Made by a program: the position numbers and the translations under genes. From positions 1 through 39,208 of the IMG/VR virus record IMGVR_UViG_3300046665_000162: a stretch of DNA of 39,208 nucleotides. One strand, given 5' to 3'. Origin of the DNA: a virus. Below, piece after piece: positions 424 through 38,704 of this stretch (within the stretch, counting starts at the first letter, position 1; each line of letters begins with the position of its first letter). Under the pieces are notes generated by a model, which saw only the letters and a program-made list of their open reading frames with translations, did no database searches and had not been told where the DNA came from.

Positions 424-561
424 TCACTCGTAAATCTTGCCGCCAGCGATAAACCGTGTGGCGCCGAATACCACGGTCGCCACCGCGAACCCGACTACGG
501 CTGCGAACGCTATTGCCGGCGACAAAACAATTAGCGAGACAACTTTAATTTTGGCTTTCAT
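424..561 (-). CDS. Small hydrophobic membrane peptide (45 aa)
   Basis: An ATG-initiated ORF of 45 codons converges on Rz1. The peptide begins MKAKIKVVSL, continues with hydrophobic Ala/Val/Ile/Phe-rich sequence to about residue 36, and ends in a short polar tail (GGKIYE). It could be one long transmembrane helix or a signal peptide plus a hydrophobic mature part. No good Shine-Dalgarno is seen; a four-codon ORF (MLIK) ends in an ATGA overlap at its start and might couple translation. It lies in the accessory stretch between the lysis genes and the methyltransferase. Function unknown; a chance ORF cannot be excluded. Confidence 0.4.
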   Translation of the reverse strand: MKAKIKVVSLIVLSPAIAFAAVVGFAVATVVFGATRFIAGGKIYE

Positions 562-1942: not shown

Positions 1943-3123
1943 TCAGCGAACTTCTCAACGGCTTTCGAACCCGAGGAATCATCCGCTGACGGCATCCATC
2001 GACCATACACGCGGGCGATCATAGTCCAGTCTGCGTGGCCCATCTGCTTCGCGACCCACATCGGGTGTTCACCGGCTGACAGCATCATTGATGCATAGGT
2101 GTGGCGCGTCTGATAGGGCCGGCGATACCTGACGGTCGCGCGTTTCAGTGCCGTCTGCCAGACCCGGTAAATCTGGTGCGATCCGGCGTAGCGCTCGCGC
2201 GTCGTCGGATTGACGAACACCGGGCCATCGGCTTCAGCCAGAAAGGTCATGGCCTTCTGCGCTTTCAGTGCGGCGAGTGCCGGCGCAAGCAGCTTCACGT
2301 CGCGGCGCCCCGCGTCGGTCTTCGGATACTCGGCGACCCCCTTCGACTCGCGCGTGATAGCGCGCCGCACCCGCACGAAGCCGCCCATGAAATCGATGTC
2401 GCTCCAGTTGAGCGCCGTCGCTTCGGACGTGCGCAGGCCAGTCCACAGGAAAAATTGCACCAGATTGTTTTCGCCTTCGCGCAGCTTCGCGAGGATCGCC
2501 CGCTGTTCTTCTGGCGAGAACGGATCAACGTCGTCTTCCGGCTCGCCTTCGACCGGCCGCTCGACCCGCGAGTAGGTGTATCCGGCGAGGGGATTCGTTT
2601 CGATAATCTCGTCTGCCGCGGCATCGCCTAGCGCTGATCGCATACAGCTCTGAATATTGGACAGCCGTTTGTTCGTGACCTTCTTTTCGTCCGGACGCCC
2701 GGCGTCGATCTTCGCCAGTTCGTTGCGGATCGCCGCGCGCTTCAGGTCGGTCAGCGCCAGATCGCCCCATGTCGGTATGACATAACCGAACGTGATCGAG
2801 TGGTAACCCTGGTATGTGGAGGCCTTTACCTCGGCCTTTTTCCGGTCAAGCCACGACTCGAAATACTTTTCCACAGTCAGAACATCGCCCGGTTTCTCCG
2901 CGAACTGCTCAAGATATTTCGAGTCCGGAAACTCAGCGGCGTAGTTAAATTTATCGATGCGAATGGCGTGCATGATTGCCGCACGCCACTCGATCATCTT
3001 TCGAAGATTGGCCGGAGAGAGGGTAGCTTTGACGCGCTCCCGGCACCTGACGCCCCTGTACGTGAACGTGATTTCATAGCTGGAGTCTGATGCGACGGCG
3101 ACTCCGGTCCCTTTTCTACCCAT
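1888..3123 (-). CDS. int: Tyrosine-family site-specific integrase
   Basis: This 411-residue recombinase would integrate the phage at the tRNA site. It has an N-terminal arm-binding domain of DUF3596 type (about 1-60), a core-binding helical domain (about 83-175) and a catalytic domain (about 200-380). Catalytic residues visible are Arg231 (GLRTSE), Lys268, Arg340 in PYQTRHTYAS, His363 in MGH and nucleophile Tyr373 (ARVYGRW). The HxxR box reads YQTR, a His-to-Tyr change seen in this subfamily. The start at 3123 is chosen because it gives the usual N-terminus and has GAGG 10 bases upstream. It is the last gene of the left operon and overlaps the excisionase by 130 bases. Confidence 0.95.
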   Translation of the reverse strand: MGRKGTGVAVASDSSYEITFTYRGVRCRERVKATLSPANLRKMIEWRAAIMHAIRIDKFNYAAEFPDSKYLEQFAEKPGDVLTVEKYFESWLDRKKAEVKASTYQGYHSITFGYVIPTWGDLALTDLKRAAIRNELAKIDAGRPDEKKVTNKRLSNIQSCMRSALGDAAADEIIETNPLAGYTYSRVERPVEGEPEDDVDPFSPEEQRAILAKLREGENNLVQFFLWTGLRTSEATALNWSDIDFMGGFVRVRRAITRESKGVAEYPKTDAGRRDVKLLAPALAALKAQKAMTFLAEADGPVFVNPTTRERYAGSHQIYRVWQTALKRATVRYRRPYQTRHTYASMMLSAGEHPMWVAKQMGHADWTMIARVYGRWMPSADDSSGSKAVEKFAENAGVNAGKSSVNPAKTG

Positions 3124-3284
3124 GATTCGTAAGCCTCGATGTCCATGAGGATCGTTTTCGATCCGGGTGCGTACCGCCAGACCGTCCCTTCCAGCCAGAC
3201 GCCCTTGCACTTCTTCGTGTAGACGGCTGCCGGCGTCATTCCGGTCAATTCGCAGAATTTGGCAATTGTTACAAAGCGTACCAT
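2994..3284 (-). CDS. xis: Excisionase-like DNA-binding protein
   Basis: The 96-residue protein opens with MVRFVTIAKFCELTG followed by a winged-helix-like segment ending in WRYAPGSKTILMDIEAYESWVE, the pattern of small phage excisionases related to MerR-type domains. Such proteins bend att DNA and direct integrase toward excision. The C-terminal 40 residues are polar and overlap int in another frame, which keeps the two genes coupled. The start at 3284 has a strong AGGGGG site; an upstream in-frame start is less likely. Confidence 0.8.
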   Translation of the reverse strand: MVRFVTIAKFCELTGMTPAAVYTKKCKGVWLEGTVWRYAPGSKTILMDIEAYESWVEKGPESPSHQTPAMKSRSRTGASGAGSASKLPSLRPIFER

Positions 3285-3294
3285 GGTCGCCCCC

Positions 3295-3369
3295 TCATCC
3301 TTGGGCGTGGGGGACAGACCATGCCCGCGCCGTCGTTTCAATAACCCGCTGCGCCTCTGCCTCGATCAC
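3295..3369 (-). CDS. Possible 24-aa coupled peptide upstream of xis
   Basis: A GTG start overlaps the stop of the preceding gene as GTGA, the same junction type used throughout this operon, and the ORF ends 11 bases before the xis start. The peptide (MIEAEAQRVIETTARAWSVP...) is short and mostly polar, with an amphipathic look. It may serve mainly to carry ribosomes to xis. Only junction geometry supports it. Confidence 0.35.
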   Translation of the reverse strand: MIEAEAQRVIETTARAWSVPHAQG

Positions 3370-3725
3370 CGCGGCCTCGCCATCATCGCCAGGTCAACGC
3401 GCCGGCTGATCTCGGCGAAGTAGCCGGTCAGCTCGCCGATGAGCGGGGAGAGCGTGCGCGGTTGAGCCATGGTCTCCGGATCAGGTTTCGGCGGCGCCAG
3501 CTTTCCGCGTCTTAGGTGCTCAGTGTTCGGCAGAATGAAGCACTGATGCTTGTGTGGCCTGATCGTCTTCAACTTGCCTTCGTCGACGAGTGAAAGAAGG
3601 ATCTGCTTCACATCCACGGATGTCGCGTGGAGCTTGCGGCCAAGGTTGTATGGCGAGTAGATCTGGCCCGGCTTGATAAGTTCGCGAAGGATCTCGCGCG
3701 TGACTGGTTTGGCGGAGTAGGGCAT
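3366..3725 (-). CDS. Winged-helix-like hypothetical protein
   Basis: The 119-residue product is not assigned to a family. Residues about 8-65 (REILRELIKPGQIYSPYNLGRKL, then VDVKQILLSLVDEGKLKTIRPH) have the helix-turn-helix-wing pattern of winged-helix DNA-binding domains, so a small regulator is plausible. The C-terminal half is Pro/Arg-rich with a short amphipathic helix. Its ATG overlaps the previous stop as TGATG, and a GTG one codon earlier is an alternative start. Confidence 0.65.
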   Translation of the reverse strand: MPYSAKPVTREILRELIKPGQIYSPYNLGRKLHATSVDVKQILLSLVDEGKLKTIRPHKHQCFILPNTEHLRRGKLAPPKPDPETMAQPRTLSPLIGELTGYFAEISRRVDLAMMARPR

Positions 3726-4822
3726 CACTGACCCTCCTTCTGGCCGCTTGCTGGCTGCGCGGCGGTAGTTTTTTCACCGGTCTTCGCGCGCGCCTGCCAC
3801 ATGAGCCAGCCGTCTTGAACTCGCGTATTGACGTAGGCGTCCGGATTGAATCCGCTGCGCTTGAATGTCGTCTCGCCGTGCAGCGGGTATTCCTGACGCC
3901 AGGCCGCTTCGAAAGATGAGCGCTCATCCGTCAGCGCCCGCTCCGTCTGTGCTGGTTGGGTGGCAGTCAATGCGGCTCTCACGCGGACTTCAATCGCCTT
4001 CCAGACTGCCTGTGACACTTCCTCTCTTTCATCGGCAATTCCGGTTTCGACCGCCTGCATCATGGCATTGACTGTCTGTGCTGGCTGCGTCGCCGTGGCT
4101 TGCGCCCGCACTGCCTCAATGACCGCGTTGACGAACTCTTGTGGCGCAAGGTGTCCGAAATTGCGACGATCGGATGACGAGAACAGCGAGTACACGGTGG
4201 CTTGCGGGGATGCGGCACGGGCGAGTTCTTCAATCACAGCCGTCGCAGCCGTGAAATCGTTCATGCGTCCAGTGTGGTCTCGGGCCCAGACGGGAACGCC
4301 ATCAGACCACTCGCCGTGCGTCCGCAAATGCAACCATTCCGCGTACCTCGGAAGCGCCGCCCGCTCATCGTCCAGCACCACGGCAGATTTTTCGGCCAGC
4401 ACCTTCGCAGCAACCGGACAGTCCAGATCGTGATACGGCCGATTTACCTTGCAGTGTTCGCACGGCTCCCCAGCTTCCACGGGCTGGGATGATTGCGGGG
4501 CGGCCCGTTCGACCAGTTCGCGCACTTCATATACATGCGCAAACTTTTCGTGGGCCGTTCGCGCGCCTTCTTCGCTGACGTTGATCCACACGTCACACGA
4601 CGGCAGGATCGGATTGCGCAGCTTCGTTTGATACTGCGCCACCGGCTCCGCCGATTGCGCTGGCGCGGCAGGCTTGCTTGCAGAGAGCAGGGCGCGGGCG
4701 AAGTCTTTAGCGCTTTCCGCCATCCTTCCACTTGATATGCTATGGCCCATGCATTTGTACCAAAGCGCTTCAATCTGTTCGTCTGTCATCATCGCTCCGT
4801 CGATGGTTGTAGGGGCGGTCAT
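3725..4822 (-). CDS. Ead/Ea22-like mosaic accessory protein
   Basis: This 365-residue protein is a string of short modules typical of variable early-region phage proteins. An N-terminal MTDEQIEALWYKCMG segment is followed by a Cys/His cluster (CEHCKVNRPYHDLDC), two segments ending in the repeated linker TATQPAQT, and a C-terminal module beginning FEAAWRQEYP and ending WLMWQARAK. The last module recurs in many phage proteins of unknown role. The start at 4822 makes an ATGA overlap with the upstream gene and is preferred to a 57-residue longer ORF. Function unknown; probably dispensable for growth. Confidence 0.75.
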   Translation of the reverse strand: MTAPTTIDGAMMTDEQIEALWYKCMGHSISSGRMAESAKDFARALLSASKPAAPAQSAEPVAQYQTKLRNPILPSCDVWINVSEEGARTAHEKFAHVYEVRELVERAAPQSSQPVEAGEPCEHCKVNRPYHDLDCPVAAKVLAEKSAVVLDDERAALPRYAEWLHLRTHGEWSDGVPVWARDHTGRMNDFTAATAVIEELARAASPQATVYSLFSSSDRRNFGHLAPQEFVNAVIEAVRAQATATQPAQTVNAMMQAVETGIADEREEVSQAVWKAIEVRVRAALTATQPAQTERALTDERSSFEAAWRQEYPLHGETTFKRSGFNPDAYVNTRVQDGWLMWQARAKTGEKTTAAQPASGQKEGQ

Positions 4823-5223
4823 CTCGGCTCCTTCGCGCGCTCGGCTTCGTAATCGGGTCTGGCGAACCACATGCCGTCCGGTGCAATCACAAAGATTGGC
4901 GGGTTGCCGAGCAGCTTCGAATCCCACCAAGCGTGTGCTCCATCGCGAAACGGGGCGTCGTAATAGCGTTCGCCAGTCTGATAAACGGTGCACGGCGTGG
5001 TCTCGCCTCCGCGCAAGCTTGGCGGCTTCATTGGAATGACTGCCTCCTTAATCTTCTCGGGCATCATCTCGCCGTCCTCGTCGTACTGCTCGGCGCGCAC
5101 GTCATACTGGTCGAGAGGGATTACCAACTCGTAGTGACATTCCCAGTTGTATTCGGGCTTGATAGTGCTGGGCGCCCAACGAAGCTGTAGGCGCGGAGCG
5201 GGCAATTGATCGACGTTGCTCAT
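4819..5223 (-). CDS. Hypothetical early protein (134 aa)
   Basis: No family is recognised. The protein is acidic and aromatic-rich, with a middle segment (YELVIPLDQYDVRAEQYDEDGE) and a C-terminal part (FRDGAHAWWDSKLLGNPPIFVIAPDG) that suggest a small folded beta-rich protein without membrane segments. Start at 5223 overlaps the upstream stop as ATGA; the longer ORF would run through the neighbouring gene and lacks such a junction. Confidence 0.7.
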   Translation of the reverse strand: MSNVDQLPAPRLQLRWAPSTIKPEYNWECHYELVIPLDQYDVRAEQYDEDGEMMPEKIKEAVIPMKPPSLRGGETTPCTVYQTGERYYDAPFRDGAHAWWDSKLLGNPPIFVIAPDGMWFARPDYEAERAKEPR

Positions 5224-5807
5224 GCCTGCTCCCCGGTAGATGCAGCAGGGGCGGCGAGACGATCGAGGCGCTCGATCTCGGCGAGGATCAGTGCGCCGGC
5301 TTTGACGAGGTCGCGGCGCGGCGTGGTTGGTTTCCACCATTTGCGCGACCAGTGCGGCGGCCAGAATTTTTCGAATAGCGCACCGCTCCAACTTGCTGCG
5401 CTCAACGCGTAGCATGCTGCGGCTGAAGGCATTTCGCCGCTGTCGTGCTCGCCATCGTGTTCTGGCGTCCAGCCTTCTGCCGTCACCTGACGCTTGCGCT
5501 CGGCCAGCACGTCGCGTGCGGCCTGCGTCTGCACTCCCTCTGCCTGCTCGGCGGTGGGGGCGACAGTCGGGGGAAAATCGCCGATGTCGGTAACGGCGGT
5601 CTCGTTATCGAAGACCAAACGGCCAAGGTCTTCAACCGACACTTCTTCCATGTAAATCCCATCAGTGTCGTGCTTGGCAGCGCGCTCGTCGGCTTCCTCC
5701 CGCGTTTCGGCATCAACGTAGAACGTCTGCCAGCCGGCGGCTGATTCGATGCTTGCGCTATAGAGAAACCGCTTGCTCGCCCCTGCGTCTTTAGTGTTCT
5801 GTGTCAT
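5220..5807 (-). CDS. Conserved phage accessory protein with 'ERKRQVTAEGWTPEHD' module
   Basis: The 195-residue product has an N-terminal beta/alpha segment (RFLYSASIESAAGWQTFYVDAETREEADERA) and a C-terminal module beginning ARDVLAERKRQVTAEGW and ending with KAGALILAEIERLDR. The second module is widespread in phage early regions, often attached to unrelated N-termini; its biochemical role is unknown to me. The start has AAAGGAC upstream and overlaps the previous stop as ATGA. Confidence 0.75.
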   Translation of the reverse strand: MTQNTKDAGASKRFLYSASIESAAGWQTFYVDAETREEADERAAKHDTDGIYMEEVSVEDLGRLVFDNETAVTDIGDFPPTVAPTAEQAEGVQTQAARDVLAERKRQVTAEGWTPEHDGEHDSGEMPSAAACYALSAASWSGALFEKFWPPHWSRKWWKPTTPRRDLVKAGALILAEIERLDRLAAPAASTGEQA

Positions 5808-7770: not shown

Positions 7771-7953
7771 TTACTGCTTCGGCTGACGCGCCGCGATGTC
7801 GCGGATGCGGGCGGCGACGCGTTCGGGGACTGCGATCACCTGGCCGCCGTCGAGAGCGTCGAACGCGGGCCGCAGAAGCTCGCGATCGACGGCGGAAAGG
7901 TCGGCATTGCGGATGCGGCGCAAGTCGTTCCAGAGGGGGGATTCGACGGTCAC
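7771..7953 (-). CDS. Small protein coupled to RecT (60 aa)
   Basis: A 60-codon ORF overlaps the recT stop as ATGA. Its product is helical and charged (LRRIRNADLSAVDRELLRPA, then VPERVAARIRDIAARQ) with no cysteine or membrane segment. It could be a small RecT partner, judged only by its coupling. Confidence 0.6.
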   Translation of the reverse strand: MTVESPLWNDLRRIRNADLSAVDRELLRPAFDALDGGQVIAVPERVAARIRDIAARQPKQ

Positions 7954-8957
7954 GATTGCGCCTGCATCAGTTCGTCGCGGCGGTCCTGATAGGCCTGTTC
8001 CAGCTTCATGCGCTCCGTGTCCGGATAGTTGCGCACTTCGTCAGCGCAGATGTCCAGCACGTCGAGGTCGGCGCACTTCTGGATGCGGTCGAGCATGGTC
8101 GAGTAGGGCGCGAGCGTGTTGTCGGCCTGCTGCGTGCGTTGGTCGGTAATCTCGCCGGTGGACTGGTCGACGTGATCGTCATCCACGGTCGTGAACTGGC
8201 CGTCGATGATCGCGTTGTTGTCCTGCGGCAGCCCCATTTCTGCGCGCTCGTCGAGCCCTACAGCAGTCTGTATTTCGATGCTGACCGGCAGGAACTTGAA
8301 CAGGCGACGCACGACGGTCTTCAGTGCCATGGCCTGATAGTCCGTCTTCCACGGGCCGCCGTTGCCAGCCTTGCTGCGCGCGCGGATGCCTTCGATCTCG
8401 GCGCGGCTCATCACGTCGAACTGGATGCCGCCGTCCTTCAGCTTCGCCACCGCGTAGACGAATTGAAGCTTTTCGCCCATCGTGCGATTCGGGTTCGCCC
8501 AGTCCGGCTCGTGCTCGATGTGCGGGTCAAGGCCTAGTCGGCATTCGAACTTGTCGCCTTCATAGACGGCGCGCGCGTCGATGCTGACGATCTGGCCAGA
8601 GCGGCGCGCGAGGTCGATCATGCCGCGGTAGCCGATGATCAGTTGCACGTCGCAACCGTAGGGAAGCAGGTAGGCATGGCCAAGCGCGTTGCCCGGTTCG
8701 AGCCCGAGCTGCGCGCACTGGATGACTGCGCCGAAGAACGAAACCGGCGTGCATTCGGCCAGCTTCGGCACCTTGCGGATCTCGGTTGTGACGATGCGTG
8801 CGAGACGCTCAGGAGTCATATGGCGCGGCAGTGCGGCCTTGATTTGTGCCTGCATGCTCGGGCTCGATAGCATGTGCGCGACTTTGTCGACCGGCGTCTT
8901 GGCTACTTCGCCGTTGCGGACATTCGAAAGGCTGGTGGTGTTCTGTGCCACGGTCAT
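7950..8957 (-). CDS. recT: RecT-family single-strand annealing protein
   Basis: The 335-residue protein matches RecT: VPKLAECTPVSFFGAVIQCAQLGLEPG near residues 64-90, then NALGHAYLLPYG and QLIIGYRGMIDLARRSG, the conserved core of the family. RecT anneals complementary strands on ends resected by its partner exonuclease and promotes circularisation and recombination of phage DNA. The C-terminal 70 residues are acidic and less conserved. It overlaps the exonuclease gene upstream by 4 bases, the usual pairing. Confidence 0.95.
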   Translation of the reverse strand: MTVAQNTTSLSNVRNGEVAKTPVDKVAHMLSSPSMQAQIKAALPRHMTPERLARIVTTEIRKVPKLAECTPVSFFGAVIQCAQLGLEPGNALGHAYLLPYGCDVQLIIGYRGMIDLARRSGQIVSIDARAVYEGDKFECRLGLDPHIEHEPDWANPNRTMGEKLQFVYAVAKLKDGGIQFDVMSRAEIEGIRARSKAGNGGPWKTDYQAMALKTVVRRLFKFLPVSIEIQTAVGLDERAEMGLPQDNNAIIDGQFTTVDDDHVDQSTGEITDQRTQQADNTLAPYSTMLDRIQKCADLDVLDICADEVRNYPDTERMKLEQAYQDRRDELMQAQS

Positions 8958-9781
8958 TCCTCAGTGATAAGCGCCCAGGACGGGAGCCGGATGATGTTGA
9001 TGCCCGTCGAGTAGCCGGGCCACGTGTTGGCGCGCTCGCACTCGGCGTACGTGCGCAGGTTCTTGCGGTACTTCGCGCGGCCCGCTTCGAGGCTTTCTTC
9101 GTCGAGCATGAAAGCGTTGGCGGCGAACGGGTATTCGGTCTCGACGGCCAGAAAGATGAAGCCGAGCACTTCCATTCCGCTGGCTTTCTCGTAGCCGTCC
9201 GAATAGAACGCGGCCTGAACGTCGTAGCGCTTGCGTGCGACCTGACGACGGAACTCGCTCGGCGCCGCGCTGCTGAACGTTTTCAGGTCGAGCAACAGGA
9301 CCGCGTTTTCACGCACCGGGTGAACGAAGTCGGGACGGCAGCGGCACTTCACGCCGGTTTCTTCGTCGGTCCAGAACGCGGACACCTCGGCTTTGCCGCT
9401 GGCGAGCGCTTCGCCGATCTCCGGCAGCGCGCGCACCGACGCGGCCTGACGCACCGCGGCTTCATACTGGTCGTGCTGAATAGCAACGCGGTTCAGATGC
9501 GCCTCGACGAACTCTTTCCAGACCTTCGTATTTCGGTTGACGGTCGGGCCGACGACATAGCGCAATTCGAATTCGTCGGGCTCAAGCACGGCGCAGTGCG
9601 CGAGGTTGCCTTCAAGCTGGCCGGACTTCGAGATAGGCGCTGGGCGATCGGCTGCACGATGCCGCGCAAAGAAGATCGCGGGCGACAGGTCGAGCGTGTC
9701 GAGTTGCGATTTCGACACCGGCGTCATCGCGTGGTACTGCTCGATGTCGAGGCCTTCGATCAGGTTGTCGGAATAGCTCAC
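8954..9781 (-). CDS. RecE-like exonuclease (DUF3799 / PD-(D/E)XK)
   Basis: This 275-residue protein resembles the nuclease domain of exonuclease VIII. The catalytic cluster includes Asp151 (CRPDF), Asp165 and Lys167 (LLDLKTF), and the downstream YDVQAAFY motif (Tyr186, Gln189). An N-terminal YHAMTPVSKSQLD segment is also typical. It would resect double-stranded ends 5' to 3' to load RecT. Length fits a stand-alone nuclease domain, unlike the long E. coli RecE. The start is GTG, overlapping the upstream stop as GTGA. Confidence 0.92.
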   Translation of the reverse strand: MSYSDNLIEGLDIEQYHAMTPVSKSQLDTLDLSPAIFFARHRAADRPAPISKSGQLEGNLAHCAVLEPDEFELRYVVGPTVNRNTKVWKEFVEAHLNRVAIQHDQYEAAVRQAASVRALPEIGEALASGKAEVSAFWTDEETGVKCRCRPDFVHPVRENAVLLLDLKTFSSAAPSEFRRQVARKRYDVQAAFYSDGYEKASGMEVLGFIFLAVETEYPFAANAFMLDEESLEAGRAKYRKNLRTYAECERANTWPGYSTGINIIRLPSWALITEE

Positions 9782-9927
9782 GTGGCTCTCCCATATGCGA
9801 CCGCTGCATCCACGTAATCCGGATCAGCCGGCACGACGAGCAGCGTGAGAAGGATCAGCGCCACGAAGCCCGCGAGGATCGAGAGCAGCGGGTGGCGGTT
9901 GCTGAAGCGATTAAGTCGACGAATCAT
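9778..9927 (-). CDS. Small single-pass membrane protein (49 aa)
   Basis: The peptide has a basic N-terminus (MIRRLNRFSNRHP), a hydrophobic helix (LLSILAGFVALILLTLLVV, residues about 14-32) and a short acidic tail, so an N-in single-pass membrane protein is likely. A strong AAGGGG site precedes the ATG, and both ends overlap neighbours by 4 bases. Together with three other tiny hydrophobic genes it forms a membrane-peptide cluster directly upstream of the exonuclease gene. Function unknown. Confidence 0.7.
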   Translation of the reverse strand: MIRRLNRFSNRHPLLSILAGFVALILLTLLVVPADPDYVDAAVAYGRAT

Positions 9928-10007
9928 GCGATTCCCCTTGCAGCCATCCAGCCCAGCCACAGGCCGAACGCAATAGCTATTGACCATTCGATGACGGTGG
10001 CCTTCAT
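9924..10007 (-). CDS. Tiny membrane peptide (27 aa)
   Basis: MKATVIEWSIAIAFGLWLGW then MAARGIA: almost the whole peptide is one hydrophobic, tryptophan-containing helix. ATGA overlaps at both ends tie it to its neighbours, the main evidence of translation. The Shine-Dalgarno is weak, so expression probably depends on coupling. Too small for family assignment. Confidence 0.55.
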   Translation of the reverse strand: MKATVIEWSIAIAFGLWLGWMAARGIA

Positions 10008-10129
10008 GAGCACACCGCATGCAGATAGAACGTGAAGATCACCAGCGCGCAGACAGCGGCCGCGCACACGCCAGCGGAGAAAGCGAGAGAGAGGTCTGCG
10101 AGGCGCAGATCGCGTTCGGTGATCTTCAC
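10004..10129 (-). CDS. Tiny membrane peptide (41 aa), GTG start
   Basis: The ORF starts at GTG with GGAGG four bases upstream and overlaps the XRE gene stop as GTGA. Its product has a charged N-terminus (MKITERDLRLADL) and a hydrophobic Ala/Val/Cys-rich helix (about residues 14-38). It ends in an ATGA overlap with the next peptide. The strong ribosome site and double coupling make translation likely. Function unknown. Confidence 0.6.
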   Translation of the reverse strand: MKITERDLRLADLSLAFSAGVCAAAVCALVIFTFYLHAVCS

Positions 10130-10437
10130 GATTCCTCCGAACGCTCTGCAATCCAGGCCAAAATCGCGACGATTTTTTTCGCGATAGTTGTTCGAATCGG
10201 CTTTGTGATGCCTTCGCCCGACAGTTCTTCGCTGAAGAACAAGATCGACGACACCGGTACCTTGAATGCTTGCGCGTACTTTTGAAGGGTTTCGAGACTT
10301 GGCTCTCGGGTTCCTTTCTCAAGCATCGAGATAGTCGCAGTGCTCATTCCGATTTCCCGGCTCAATTCCGTTTGGTTCATGTCGTGATAGACACGCATCA
10401 GCCGAAGCGCTTCGGCAAGCATCGATGGCGCGCTCAC
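10126..10437 (-). CDS. XRE-family HTH regulator inside the early operon
   Basis: The 103-residue protein has an N-terminal Cro/C1-type helix-turn-helix (about residues 9-62; MNQTELSREIGMSTATISMLEKGTREPS lies within it) and a C-terminal basic helix (KKIVAILAWIAERSEES). It differs from the CI-like repressor and Cro of the immunity region, so it may regulate this operon or host genes. GTG at 10437 is the preferred start: it has GAGG 6 bases upstream and overlaps the previous peptide as GTGA. ATG at 10422 is an alternative. Confidence 0.82.
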   Translation of the reverse strand: MSAPSMLAEALRLMRVYHDMNQTELSREIGMSTATISMLEKGTREPSLETLQKYAQAFKVPVSSILFFSEELSGEGITKPIRTTIAKKIVAILAWIAERSEES

Positions 10438-10508
10438 GCGAACCTCACCACGCGGCAGAAGCACCAGGCGATGAACGTCCACAGGACGATGAGGGTTAGG
10501 GCGCTCAT
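10434..10508 (-). CDS. Tiny membrane peptide (24 aa)
   Basis: The peptide MSALTLIVLWTFIAWCFCRV plus VRFA is a single hydrophobic helix with a basic C-terminus. Its ATG overlaps the upstream stop (ATGA) and its stop overlaps the XRE start (GTGA). GGAG lies a short distance upstream. It may function as a membrane peptide or simply as a coupling ORF for the regulator. Confidence 0.5.
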   Translation of the reverse strand: MSALTLIVLWTFIAWCFCRVVRFA

Positions 10509-10828
10509 GATTGGCTCCCGGTGGCTTTGGCGACGATGGCCTGAAGGTCTTCGCACACAATCTGTTCTCCCCACGAGTTATCGCGGGTGGAAAGAAACTT
10601 GATAGTCTCAATCGCTTCTTTTAGCGCTTCGAGCATCTCGGGCGCGGCGGCGATCAGGCGGACTGTTTCTTTAAGCTGCTGATGCTCGCGACCATCGAGT
10701 TCGAAATCGCGACTTAGTCCACCTGCCACGATCGTTTCACCAGTCGTTTCGGACTTGATGAAAAAGTCGCCGCCATCACCATCGAACTGGAACGTCCACG
10801 GCCCCAGCATGAATTTTTGTTTGCTCAT
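10505..10828 (-). CDS. Ea22-like early protein with 'RLIAAAPEMLEALK' motif
   Basis: The 107-residue product opens with MSKQKFMLGPWTFQFDGDGGDFFI, a GPW-containing beta segment, followed by LKETVRLIAAAPEMLEALKEA, the motif also found in the 108-aa protein at 6804-7130. The family is common in temperate phage early operons and has no known activity. The start at 10828 overlaps the upstream stop as ATGA and is favoured over a start four codons earlier. Confidence 0.72.
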   Translation of the reverse strand: MSKQKFMLGPWTFQFDGDGGDFFIKSETTGETIVAGGLSRDFELDGREHQQLKETVRLIAAAPEMLEALKEAIETIKFLSTRDNSWGEQIVCEDLQAIVAKATGSQS

Positions 10829-11199
10829 TTCCCACCCCACTTCGCCACTTCGGCGTCGATCCGAAGCATCCAGTCGTTCGCCATGACTTCGCTGTCCTGC
10901 TCGATGTAAAGATTGATCAGCGCGAAGACCATCGCACCAACGTAGTCGATACGGTTGGAAAGCAGATGCGGACGGATCTTTTCTGCCGCGACTTCCATCA
11001 CGCTTTGCATGCCCGCGACGATGTCGATAGGCGCCATGGCCGCCTTGCGCTCAGCGATCAGTTCCTGAGTACGCGCTGCGATCATTTCGTCGCGTGACTC
11101 GGCATCGTCGAGCGCCTTGTCGATCTTTGCCTTTGTTCGGTCAGCGACGTATTCGCCCATCGCGAGAGCCTGTTTGCCGCAGTAGTGGAGTGTGCTCAT
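10825..11199 (-). CDS. Hypothetical early protein (124 aa)
   Basis: The protein begins MSTLHYCGKQALAMGEYVADRTKAKIDKALDD and is largely helical, with many charged residues through the middle (MIAARTQELIAERKAA). A moderately hydrophobic C-terminal segment (YVGAMVFALINLYIEQ) is probably buried rather than transmembrane. No family is recognised. It starts two bases after the stop of the operon's first gene. Confidence 0.68.
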   Translation of the reverse strand: MSTLHYCGKQALAMGEYVADRTKAKIDKALDDAESRDEMIAARTQELIAERKAAMAPIDIVAGMQSVMEVAAEKIRPHLLSNRIDYVGAMVFALINLYIEQDSEVMANDWMLRIDAEVAKWGGK

Positions 11200-11201
11200 G
11201 G

Positions 11202-11351
11202 TCAGCCCCAGCAAACGTTGCGATAGTCGACCGTGCGACGGATCACCCAGTGGCGGCGCAGCTCGGACGCTTCGTAGTTCGGACAGGCCACTTCGAGGTA
11301 GCCGTTCGCGAGAAGCACGAGAACGGTGTGGAGTCGGTGGAAGCAGGGCAT
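11202..11351 (-). CDS. First gene of the left operon (49 aa)
   Basis: An ATG ORF with GAGGT seven bases upstream begins about 35 bases after the leftward promoter's -10. The product (MPCFHRLHTVLVLLANGYLE... to NVCWG) is Cys/His/Trp-containing with a YxxxxLRRHWVIRR basic segment. It could be a small DNA- or protein-binding inhibitor, the kind of early protein that sits first under PL, but nothing specific is recognised. Confidence 0.65.
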   Translation of the reverse strand: MPCFHRLHTVLVLLANGYLEVACPNYEASELRRHWVIRRTVDYRNVCWG

Positions 11352-11384
11352 TTCGGTCACCTCACGGTGCGTTGTTGTTGAGTC

Positions 11385-11414
11385 TATTTAACGACATCGC
11401 ATCTGTGCTGTCAA
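11385..11414 (-). promoter_or_regulatory. Leftward early promoter (PL-like)
   Basis: On the minus strand a perfect -35 TTGACA (11414-11409) is followed after 17 bases by TTAAAT (11391-11386); TAAATA one base later is an alternative -10. It faces the 49-aa gene at 11351 and the whole leftward operon. The -35 lies within an operator-like palindrome, so repressor binding would block it. Confidence 0.7.
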
Positions 11415-11426
11415 GTGAACTCTACA
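11409..11426. promoter_or_regulatory. Left operator (imperfect palindrome)
   Basis: TGTCAAGTGAACTCTACA matches the operator at 12868-12885 (TGTCGAGTGAACTTGACA) at 15 of 18 positions and keeps the TGTCRAGT half-site with a GA centre. It covers the -35 of the leftward promoter. Binding by the CI-like repressor is inferred. Confidence 0.65.
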
Positions 11427-11468
11427 AAATAGTTGTGGGTAAGGTTCGCGTAACAAAACTACAGACGT

Positions 11469-11497
11469 AAAAAAACCCGCACGCGGCGGGTTTCTTT
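11469..11497 (-). terminator. Rho-independent terminator after the immunity operon
   Basis: AAACCCGC and GCGGGTTT form an 8-bp stem around a 5-base loop. On the minus strand it is followed by a run of T residues, so it should end leftward transcription of repressor and lipoprotein genes before the PL promoter. A weaker T-rich tract on the plus strand could make it bidirectional. Confidence 0.85.
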
Positions 11498-11512
11498 TCT
11501 ATGAATCGATGT

Positions 11513-11845
11513 TTATTTCGAAGGAGAGGTGAGATTGGTCAAGTTCGGCCGAACGTATGCTGGGTCGTTTTTGTCGAGGCACTGGAAAGTCAAATCAGAC
11601 TCGACCGGTGTCCATCCCCGAGCGCCAGATGTCTTGGCCGGCGCCGCTTGCAGCTCTTTGCCCTGCGCTGCGCAGAATTCGCGGGCCTTGGCGACGGCCA
11701 ATGCTGTCGTCTCGCCATGCGACTGGAAGCCGCCGCGCGTTGTCGCATCCACCTGGTATGTGTCTTTTCCGATTTGCGTCACTTCGCTGACCGATTGACA
11801 GCCGGCGAGCGCGGCGAGAGCGAGCACAACGTATCGATTTTTCAT
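11513..11845 (-). CDS. Lipoprotein in the immunity operon (110 aa)
   Basis: A signal peptide MKNRYVVLALAALAGC ends in lipobox LAGC, predicting a lipid-anchored mature protein beginning at Cys16. The mature part contains DTYQVDATTRGGF, a helix with REFCAAQGKEL, and a terminal LTFQCL strand. It resembles the upstream lipoprotein in layout (NGTFY/DTYQV strand, helix with FC, final F-x-C), so the two are likely paralogues. Transcription with the repressor suggests expression in the lysogen; superinfection exclusion or surface change is a reasonable inference. ATGA overlap with the upstream gene sets the start. Confidence 0.78.
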   Translation of the reverse strand: MKNRYVVLALAALAGCQSVSEVTQIGKDTYQVDATTRGGFQSHGETTALAVAKAREFCAAQGKELQAAPAKTSGARGWTPVESDLTFQCLDKNDPAYVRPNLTNLTSPSK

Positions 11846-12138
11846 CCTTGGTCCGTTCCGGCACATTTAAATTCGATTTCCACCCGCGGATAGTTGCCGA
11901 GGATGTAGGGCGGCTGAGCTTCGGTCGTGTTCGTGACTCGCACTGTCTGGCCGCGCTTGGCGCAGAACGCTGCGGCTTCCTTGATGACGTCGGCTTTCAG
12001 GTTGCCAGCGCCGCCGAAGCTGTTTGCCGACTGCTTGGAGGAATAGAAGGTGCCGTTCCCAGTATCAATTATTCCGCTGGAAGCGGCACAACCCGCGATC
12101 GCCACAGAGGCGACCGCGGTAAAAAACGCGATTCTCAT
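11842..12138 (-). CDS. Lipoprotein in the immunity operon (98 aa)
   Basis: MRIAFFTAVASVAIAGC forms a lipoprotein signal with lipobox IAGC. The mature protein has DTGNGTFYSSKQSANSFGG, a helical stretch with EAAAFCAKRGQTV, and a terminal strand VEIEFKC; two cysteines may form a disulfide in the periplasm. It follows the repressor gene by 12 bases and overlaps the second lipoprotein. Similar small lipoproteins occur in proteobacterial prophages and genomes. Function is not established. Confidence 0.78.
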   Translation of the reverse strand: MRIAFFTAVASVAIAGCAASSGIIDTGNGTFYSSKQSANSFGGAGNLKADVIKEAAAFCAKRGQTVRVTNTTEAQPPYILGNYPRVEIEFKCAGTDQG

Positions 12139-37555: not shown

Positions 37556-37933
37556 ATGAGCGGCGCCGTGAGCAGATACAGCAGTGAGCCGCCGCATACC
37601 GAGGGTGACGGATTCCGCGCCGTTGCTGCTGCGCTTGACGCACTGCGCGACGAAATCGGAACGCGGCATGTTGAAAACACCAGCTCGCTAGAAGTGCTGG
37701 AAAAGGACGTGAAGGTGCTTATCGAGCAGGTCGATCGGCTTGCGAAAGGGTTCCCGGAGGATGATCCGGACGGCCACAGGCGGATGCATGAAGCCCTGAT
37801 CGAGAAAGCAAAAGCCAGAACTGAGCTATATCGCGACTTGCAAAAGAAGTTGCTTGAGCGCGGCGTTCTGGCAGTCCTCGGGGCGATCGCGGTCGCGATC
37901 TGGTTTTACGTGAAGTCGAGGTTGAATTCGTGA
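37556..37933 (+). CDS. Coiled-coil membrane protein of the lysis cassette (XhlA-like)
   Basis: The 125-residue protein has a helical, heptad-rich middle (LEVLEKDVKVLIEQVDRLAKG, then MHEALIEKAKARTELYRDLQKKLLERG) and a single C-terminal membrane helix (VLAVLGAIAVAIWFYV). This layout resembles XhlA-type proteins that act with holins. It overlaps the holin gene. Its role may be as holin partner or antiholin. Confidence 0.72.
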   Translation: MSGAVSRYSSEPPHTEGDGFRAVAAALDALRDEIGTRHVENTSSLEVLEKDVKVLIEQVDRLAKGFPEDDPDGHRRMHEALIEKAKARTELYRDLQKKLLERGVLAVLGAIAVAIWFYVKSRLNS

Positions 37934-37941
37934 GGTACAAG

Positions 37942-38229
37942 ATGATTCGAGATTTACTGATCGCGGACCTGAAAACGATCCGCTCGTGGTGGTCGGTGCG
38001 CATCGGCGCATTCGGCGTGATCCTGCTGGCAGCAATCCCGGCGATCTCCGACCAGTTCCCGAACGTGGCGCCGTCACTGCTGATGTTCTTTCCGAAGCAC
38101 GGTCAGCAGTGGGTGCCGATCGCTGGCGCTGTGCTGGCCGTCGTGGCGCGAGTCGTCAGCCAGGCCGCAATGCTTGATCGGGTGCGCGGCATGTTCCGCC
38201 GCAAAGGGGGCGACGATGGCGCGCATTGA
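37942..38229 (+). CDS. Holin
   Basis: This 95-residue protein contains two hydrophobic helices (VRIGAFGVILLAAIPAI and WVPIAGAVLAVVARVV) separated by a short loop, and a basic charged C-terminus (DRVRGMFRRKGGDDGAH), typical of class II holins. It would open the inner membrane to release the endolysin. ATG at 37942 has GAGG seven bases upstream; a GTG at 37930, overlapping the previous gene, is an alternative start. Confidence 0.83.
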   Translation: MIRDLLIADLKTIRSWWSVRIGAFGVILLAAIPAISDQFPNVAPSLLMFFPKHGQQWVPIAGAVLAVVARVVSQAAMLDRVRGMFRRKGGDDGAH

Positions 38230-38704
38230 TGCATTGACGGCGGGCGGTGAGAACCGTATCGCCTTCCTCGACATGATCGCGGTCAGCGAGATCGGCGCGG
38301 CGCTGCTCGCGGAGAGCGACGACGGATACAACGTGCTCGTCGGCAGTACGCCCGCGAAGCCGCTGCTGTTCAAGTCCTACGCCGATCACCCGAACGTGCT
38401 GAATACCGCGCTGCGCTCGACTGCGGCCGGCCGTTACCAGATCCTCAACCGCTGGTGGCGCATCTACAAGGCGCAAATGTTCCTGCGCGACTTCTCGCCT
38501 ATCTCGCAAGACCGCTACGCACTCCAGCAGTTACGCGAGCATGGCGCGCTGCCGCTGATCGATGCAGGCGCATTCGAAGCCGCGGTCGCCAAGGTGTCGA
38601 ACGTGTGGGCCAGCCTGCCGGGCGCCGGGTATGGGCAGCACGAGAACCAGATCGAACATTTGCTGGTCGCGTATCAGGCGGCTGGCGGGGAGCTATCGGA
38701 ATGA
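38216..38704 (+). CDS. R: Endolysin, lambda R-like lytic transglycosylase (GH104)
   Basis: The 162-residue enzyme matches lambda R: FLDMIAVSEIG with probable catalytic Glu25, then GYNVLVGS, YADHPN, AAGRYQILNRWW, RDFSPISQDRYALQQLREHGALPLID and NVWASLPGAGYGQ. These enzymes cleave the glycan strand to 1,6-anhydro products. No signal peptide is seen, so release needs the holin. The start overlaps the holin stop by 14 bases. Confidence 0.95.
   Translation: MARIDALTAGGENRIAFLDMIAVSEIGAALLAESDDGYNVLVGSTPAKPLLFKSYADHPNVLNTALRSTAAGRYQILNRWWRIYKAQMFLRDFSPISQDRYALQQLREHGALPLIDAGAFEAAVAKVSNVWASLPGAGYGQHENQIEHLLVAYQAAGGELSE

Follow-up and report, generated by a model that had tools for sequence, protein, structure and literature searches.

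The accessory genes of the left (pL) operon of phages lambda and P22, such as kil, cIII, ral, arf and the Ea22 region, are short, lie upstream of exonuclease and annealing genes and are exchanged freely between phages. Small early membrane peptides occur in other phages as well. Here we describe a stretch of viral DNA, referred to as the window, which comprises one virus record of 39,208 bases (IMG/VR IMGVR_UViG_3300046665_000162). Like lambda and P22, this phage has a leftward early operon with short accessory genes placed upstream of exonuclease and annealing genes. Unlike their accessory genes, which do not form a series of single transmembrane peptides translated together, those of the window include four such predicted peptides (p24, p41, p27 and p49, named by length), and no sequence relation between the two sets was found. 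Bordetella phage vB_BaM-IFTN7 offers a closer parallel, as it encodes a small hydrophobic protein (UOK17436.1) just before exonuclease VIII, with an N terminus (MIRRALAYL) that resembles p49. However, this protein has 61 residues and a longer tail, p41 was not seen in that phage, and the resemblance does not amount to statistical homology. The peptides are also like T4 Imm-type superinfection-exclusion proteins in being small and, by prediction, early and in the membrane, and they are like the CIII protease inhibitor in position and size only. Small early membrane peptides are already known as a kind, but these particular peptides appear to be new.

The phage is temperate; the window contains genes for an integrase, a CI repressor, a Cro-like protein, a CP76-type CII, portal and head proteins, a holin and an endolysin. 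A methyltransferase-domain gene (PF08241; 645-1859, minus strand) adjoins the integrase gene. The leftward operon, encoded entirely on the minus strand, would be read from a probable early promoter at 11385-11414 (TTGACA, about 17 nt, TTAAAT), which was recognized by reading the sequence and was not picked up by a consensus scan. Its first gene encodes 52 residues (11202-11360; phrog_18845, E 1e-20) and is followed by an open frame of 124 residues (10825-11199), homologues of which lie upstream of the peptide set in L136-L145. Then come a gene at 10505-10840 that probably starts at ATG 10828, p24 (10434-10508; ATG start), an XRE gene of 103 codons (10126-10437; GTG start), p41 (10004-10129; GTG start), p27 (9924-10007; ATG start), p49 (9778-9927; ATG start), exonuclease VIII (8954-9781; GTG start; phrog_412, E 2e-83; PF12684) and a RecT-like annealing protein (7950-8957; phrog_148, E 4.5e-93). 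The gene upstream of p24 had been labelled Ea22-like; the sole basis for that name here is a match to phrog_1273 (E 3e-13), a family of unknown function.

A reading of this region from the sequence alone had described four ORFs of 24, 41, 27 and 49 codons, each essentially one hydrophobic helix, tied to each other and to their neighbours by overlaps. The coordinates and hydropathy profiles bear this out, with maximum 17-residue hydropathy values of 2.0 for p24, 2.5 for p41, 1.5 for p27 and 2.9 for p49. The overlaps that it reported are present, although their number is six rather than five (ATGA, GTGA, GTGA, ATGA, ATGA and GTGA, 4 bp each). Further ATGA overlaps flank the cluster at 10825-10828 and 8954-8957, and all junctions from the 124-residue gene through RecT, including that between p49 and the exonuclease gene, are 4-bp ATGA or GTGA overlaps. 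Most starts are preceded by a Shine-Dalgarno-like match of 4-5 nt. Relatives of the XRE protein match it only from residue 6 onwards, so ATG 10422 could be the true start; the overlap between p24 and the XRE gene would then not be a gene junction. Elsewhere in the window, another overlap-linked hydrophobic ORF of 45 residues (424-561, minus strand) has no match in PHROGs.

Significant matches to p24, p41, p27 and p49 were absent from Pfam and PHROGs, and a description of these peptides was absent from the literature searched. A DNA search of the cluster region against a phage collection came back empty, and an Rfam scan of 9000-12000 gave nothing significant, the sub-threshold matches all falling outside the peptide genes. 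The sequence-only reading had also held that chance was unlikely to produce such a cluster, and both dinucleotide shuffling and strand bias across loci support it. When we counted hydrophobic frames of 20-60 codons that are overlap-linked at both ends, four were found here, none in 1,901 of 2,000 shuffles and four in 1 of 2,000; as the cut-offs were set with the four frames in mind, this result describes their rarity and is not a blind test. The comparison of strands is independent of that choice: within 1.6 kb upstream of the exonuclease gene in 41 loci, slightly wider limits gave 2 frames of this kind on the non-coding strand against 54 on the coding strand, the 54 including alternative starts as well as loci that are nearly identical.

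To follow the peptides through related phages, we used an exonuclease scan of IMG/VR, which gave a graded series of relatives that were each mapped against the window, and a separate scan with p41. The latter recovered 15 IMG/VR loci, in which the core of p41 hardly varies. Over 13 aligned loci, its pS was 0.40, pN 0.14 and pN/pS 0.35 (these and all further pN and pS values come from pairwise counts without correction, and the sequences are not independent). The p41 genes of the window and L007 differ at 27 of 120 bases, 18 of them at third codon positions, and share 34 of 40 residues, an outcome that random substitution never reached in 20,000 trials. p41 was modelled as one helix spanning residues 5-40 (pLDDT 87), in which a charged stretch (TERDLRLADL) is followed by a segment rich in small residues that could, judging from the model, pack against another helix.

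A p49-type peptide lies downstream of p41 in all 15 loci, either directly or after one or two genes. Its sequence is less constrained (pS 0.44, pN 0.33, pN/pS 0.76). A narrow p49 profile still recovered more distant members, one of them from a bacterial genome (L079; E 0.003), and matched no reversed-sequence decoys. Searching bacterial genomes with p41 gave one clear match (L151), the others being partial and low-scoring. The L151 locus, in a bacterial genome from the family of Burkholderia, carries the p41-p49 arrangement and is presumably part of a prophage; this fits a Burkholderiaceae host, and the phage of the window probably infects Burkholderia relatives.

The other two peptides are frequent partners of this core. 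p27 gave a pS of 0.48 and a pN of 0.22 across 8 loci. The place between p41 and p49 is taken either by p27 or by a soluble protein (L003, L135 and L145-L147), with a different soluble protein there in L143. L144 has a cargo gene of 258 codons between p27 and p49 (4197-4973) whose product, by eye, looks like a PAPS-reductase or sulfotransferase-type enzyme. p24, which was too short for the collection scan, precedes p41 in roughly half of the 15 p41 loci and has homologues in L008-L011 as well; its pS of 0.39, pN of 0.32 and pN/pS of 0.83 are on their own weak evidence of selection. Every frame remains hydrophobic across relatives. The conservation check that the sequence-only reading had proposed thus points clearly to p41 and p27 being selected as peptides, with p49 and p24 appearing to be conserved mainly in position, size and hydrophobicity. 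Relatives that kept the DNA and lost the frames or their hydrophobicity would have spoken against that reading; instead, both are retained. Taken at the level of sequence, the four ORFs appear to be genuine genes for tiny membrane proteins, their membrane location being predicted from hydropathy and the helix model.

The genes around the set are exchanged from locus to locus. The sequence-only reading saw the peptides as interlocked with an XRE regulator, which did not hold across relatives, as 13 of the 15 p41 loci have the peptides without the XRE gene. Because of this absence, we consider the XRE gene to be cargo that lies outside the set. Of the 15, only L134 (on the same contig as L002) and L003 have it; an HNH endonuclease gene occupies its slot in L138 (on the same contig as L006), and the slot is empty in the other loci, with p24 joined directly to p41 in L135 and L145. 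The gene after p49 varies too, encoding exonuclease VIII, a RecE-like exonuclease, RecT of either of two families or a protein of unknown function, and a recombination gene of some type usually comes next after the p49-type peptide. Linked peptides are missing from several exonuclease loci (L014, L020, L021 and L058-L061). Unrelated early genes upstream of p24 or p41 begin alike, with MSEIKH or a close variant, in L003, L008, L136, L140, L145 and L146, as if these shared starts were short conserved linkers marking points of cassette exchange.

The XRE protein itself matches the PADLOC model HTH_VI (108 bits, residues 6-96), and other HTH models score far lower. It aligns over its full length with the HTH proteins of type VI retrons (Burkholderia phage KS5, Klebsiella phage ST147-VIM1phi7.1 and Shewanella MuM16-1) at about 40-48% identity. 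However, its locus lacks both a reverse transcriptase and the retron small peptide. RVT_1 had no match in the whole window, no reverse transcriptase lies beside the XRE gene in L003 or L121, and Rfam, which may not cover the RNAs of type VI retrons well, had no match to a retron non-coding RNA in 9000-12000. L121, from a 70.5-kb viral contig of an otherwise different phage, has an XRE copy that is 79% identical over the matched segment and 75% identical in the full alignment, again upstream of an exonuclease gene and followed by an ATGA-linked hydrophobic peptide of 40 residues that is not p41. In L121, positions 2239-5391 include the orphan XRE gene, a gene related to that for the soluble p27 alternative and, ahead of the exonuclease, two further single-helix peptides.

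For comparison with retrons, we searched 398 Burkholderia-family genomes with the HTH_VI model; as it matched 300 of them, mostly through generic HTH domains, only strong full-length matches were used. All 15 fetched loci with at least 85 bits have a reverse transcriptase alongside, as do six HTH_VI relatives from viral contigs. In these type VI retrons, a small peptide, basic and hydrophobic, is conserved upstream of the HTH gene and is possibly the effector; in the Burkholderiaceae and Klebsiella phage retrons (L090-L097, L122-L127 and L132) it has 47-57 residues and lies just before that gene. One published account mentions small auxiliary proteins, consistent with this peptide (PMC8541194). 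A profile of the retron small peptides gave zero matches to p24, p41, p27 and p49, and a proposed homology between p49 and the retron peptides was rejected when the comparison showed no relation.

In phylogenetic analysis, the three orphan XRE proteins (window, L003 and L121) group together on a branch adjacent to that of the retrons (support 89/78 and 90/86). Of the residues conserved among retrons, they retain 3 of 10 in the recognition helix and 21 of 25 in the rest of the protein. Searching five genomes with the XRE protein returned generic HTH matches only, and sequence and fold searches of solved structures placed it only among generic XRE and restriction-control proteins. The protein is a member of the HTH_VI family at a locus that is not a retron, and the simplest reading is that of a re-targeted DNA binder.

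What might the peptides do? We tentatively propose, at somewhat less than even confidence, that, early in infection or induction, they affect the host envelope or a host defence based in the membrane, with no part in DNA recombination as such. As products of this temperate phage's leftward early operon, all four would be translated in a coupled fashion from the one mRNA that also carries the recombination genes, and each would insert into the inner membrane as a single helix. p41 and p49 form the conserved core, with p27 and p24 as frequent partners, and the XRE gene would be an accessory regulator acquired by exchange, with no bearing on what the peptides do. Their early timing is suggested by the promoter-like sequence and the analogy with lambda. 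The targets may lie in the exclusion of competitors or in the blocking of a membrane sensor or effector. Against this proposal we count the near-constant position of the set beside recombination genes and the weak constraint on p49 and p24. A lysis role is disfavoured because the peptides lie in the early operon, and a holin function was rejected because the holin (37930-38229) and endolysin (38174-38704) genes are located elsewhere, on the plus strand.

The peptides might instead be small toxins, resembling kil or type I toxins, with which the phage slows or poisons its host at an early stage of infection. Their size and hydrophobicity are like those of membrane toxins and their place in an early operon is similar to that of lambda kil, but neither an antisense RNA nor any Rfam match was found in the cluster, several of the peptides share translation with genes of an essential type, and no partner antitoxin is conserved, all of which makes this explanation unlikely. 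A toxin-antitoxin pair with the XRE protein is specifically disfavoured because the peptides persist without it, and given the mosaic pattern, XRE rescue of peptide toxicity is also unlikely. Nor do we find it likely that the short frames serve as translational couplers that feed ribosomes to the next gene, with products that hardly matter. The unbroken 4-bp overlaps, the weak constraint on p49 and p24 and a Shine-Dalgarno-like sequence for the next gene within the last codons of p24 would all suit couplers. However, couplers would not account for a p41 core that is near-invariant despite diverged synonymous sites, or for hydrophobicity kept in every frame.

A role tied to recombination, for example in anchoring recombination proteins to the membrane or assisting them as a small accessory gene, is improbable to much the same degree. 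In most loci p49 lies at the start of the recombination gene regardless of its type, yet the enzymes are entirely different between loci and some exonuclease loci have no peptide; a specific recombination role is disfavoured because the peptides are independent of the type of enzyme. We give still less credit to a CIII-like activity, by which the peptides would bind or occupy the membrane protease FtsH and tune the choice between lysis and lysogeny. Lambda cIII is likewise short, belongs to the early left operon and precedes recombination genes, and this phage has a CII-type gene, but the CIII helix is amphipathic and not transmembrane, we saw no sequence similarity, and the CII here belongs to the CP76 family.

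Two readings that give the XRE protein a central part are more remote. The first, a long shot, is that this re-targeted relative of type VI retron HTH proteins acts as a decoy or antitoxin mimic against host retrons and is produced early, from the operon that also encodes membrane peptides for blunting defences that act at the membrane. The second, which we hold to be very improbable, is that a single system of type VI retron origin unites the XRE protein, as regulator, with the neighbouring peptides as its membrane effector. It would explain the HTH_VI assignment, the peptide just upstream of HTH in type VI retrons and the ATGA-linked peptide after the XRE gene in L121, but the phage peptides are unrelated to those of retrons, p24, p41 and p49 persist without the XRE gene, and the L121 peptide is not p41. 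Chance ORFs in GC-rich phage DNA can be set aside almost completely: ATGA and GTGA overlaps form easily and p24 alone carries little selection signal, but the shuffle test and strand bias argue against them and selection refutes them for p41 and p27.

Peptides of 24-49 residues are easily missed by annotation, but those described here form a set that is conserved at a fixed place in many phages. Its position adjoining the recombination genes makes the set a small and defined target for testing early phage membrane peptides, and the presence of a lone retron-type DNA-binding subunit in two different phages leads to a concrete anti-retron hypothesis.
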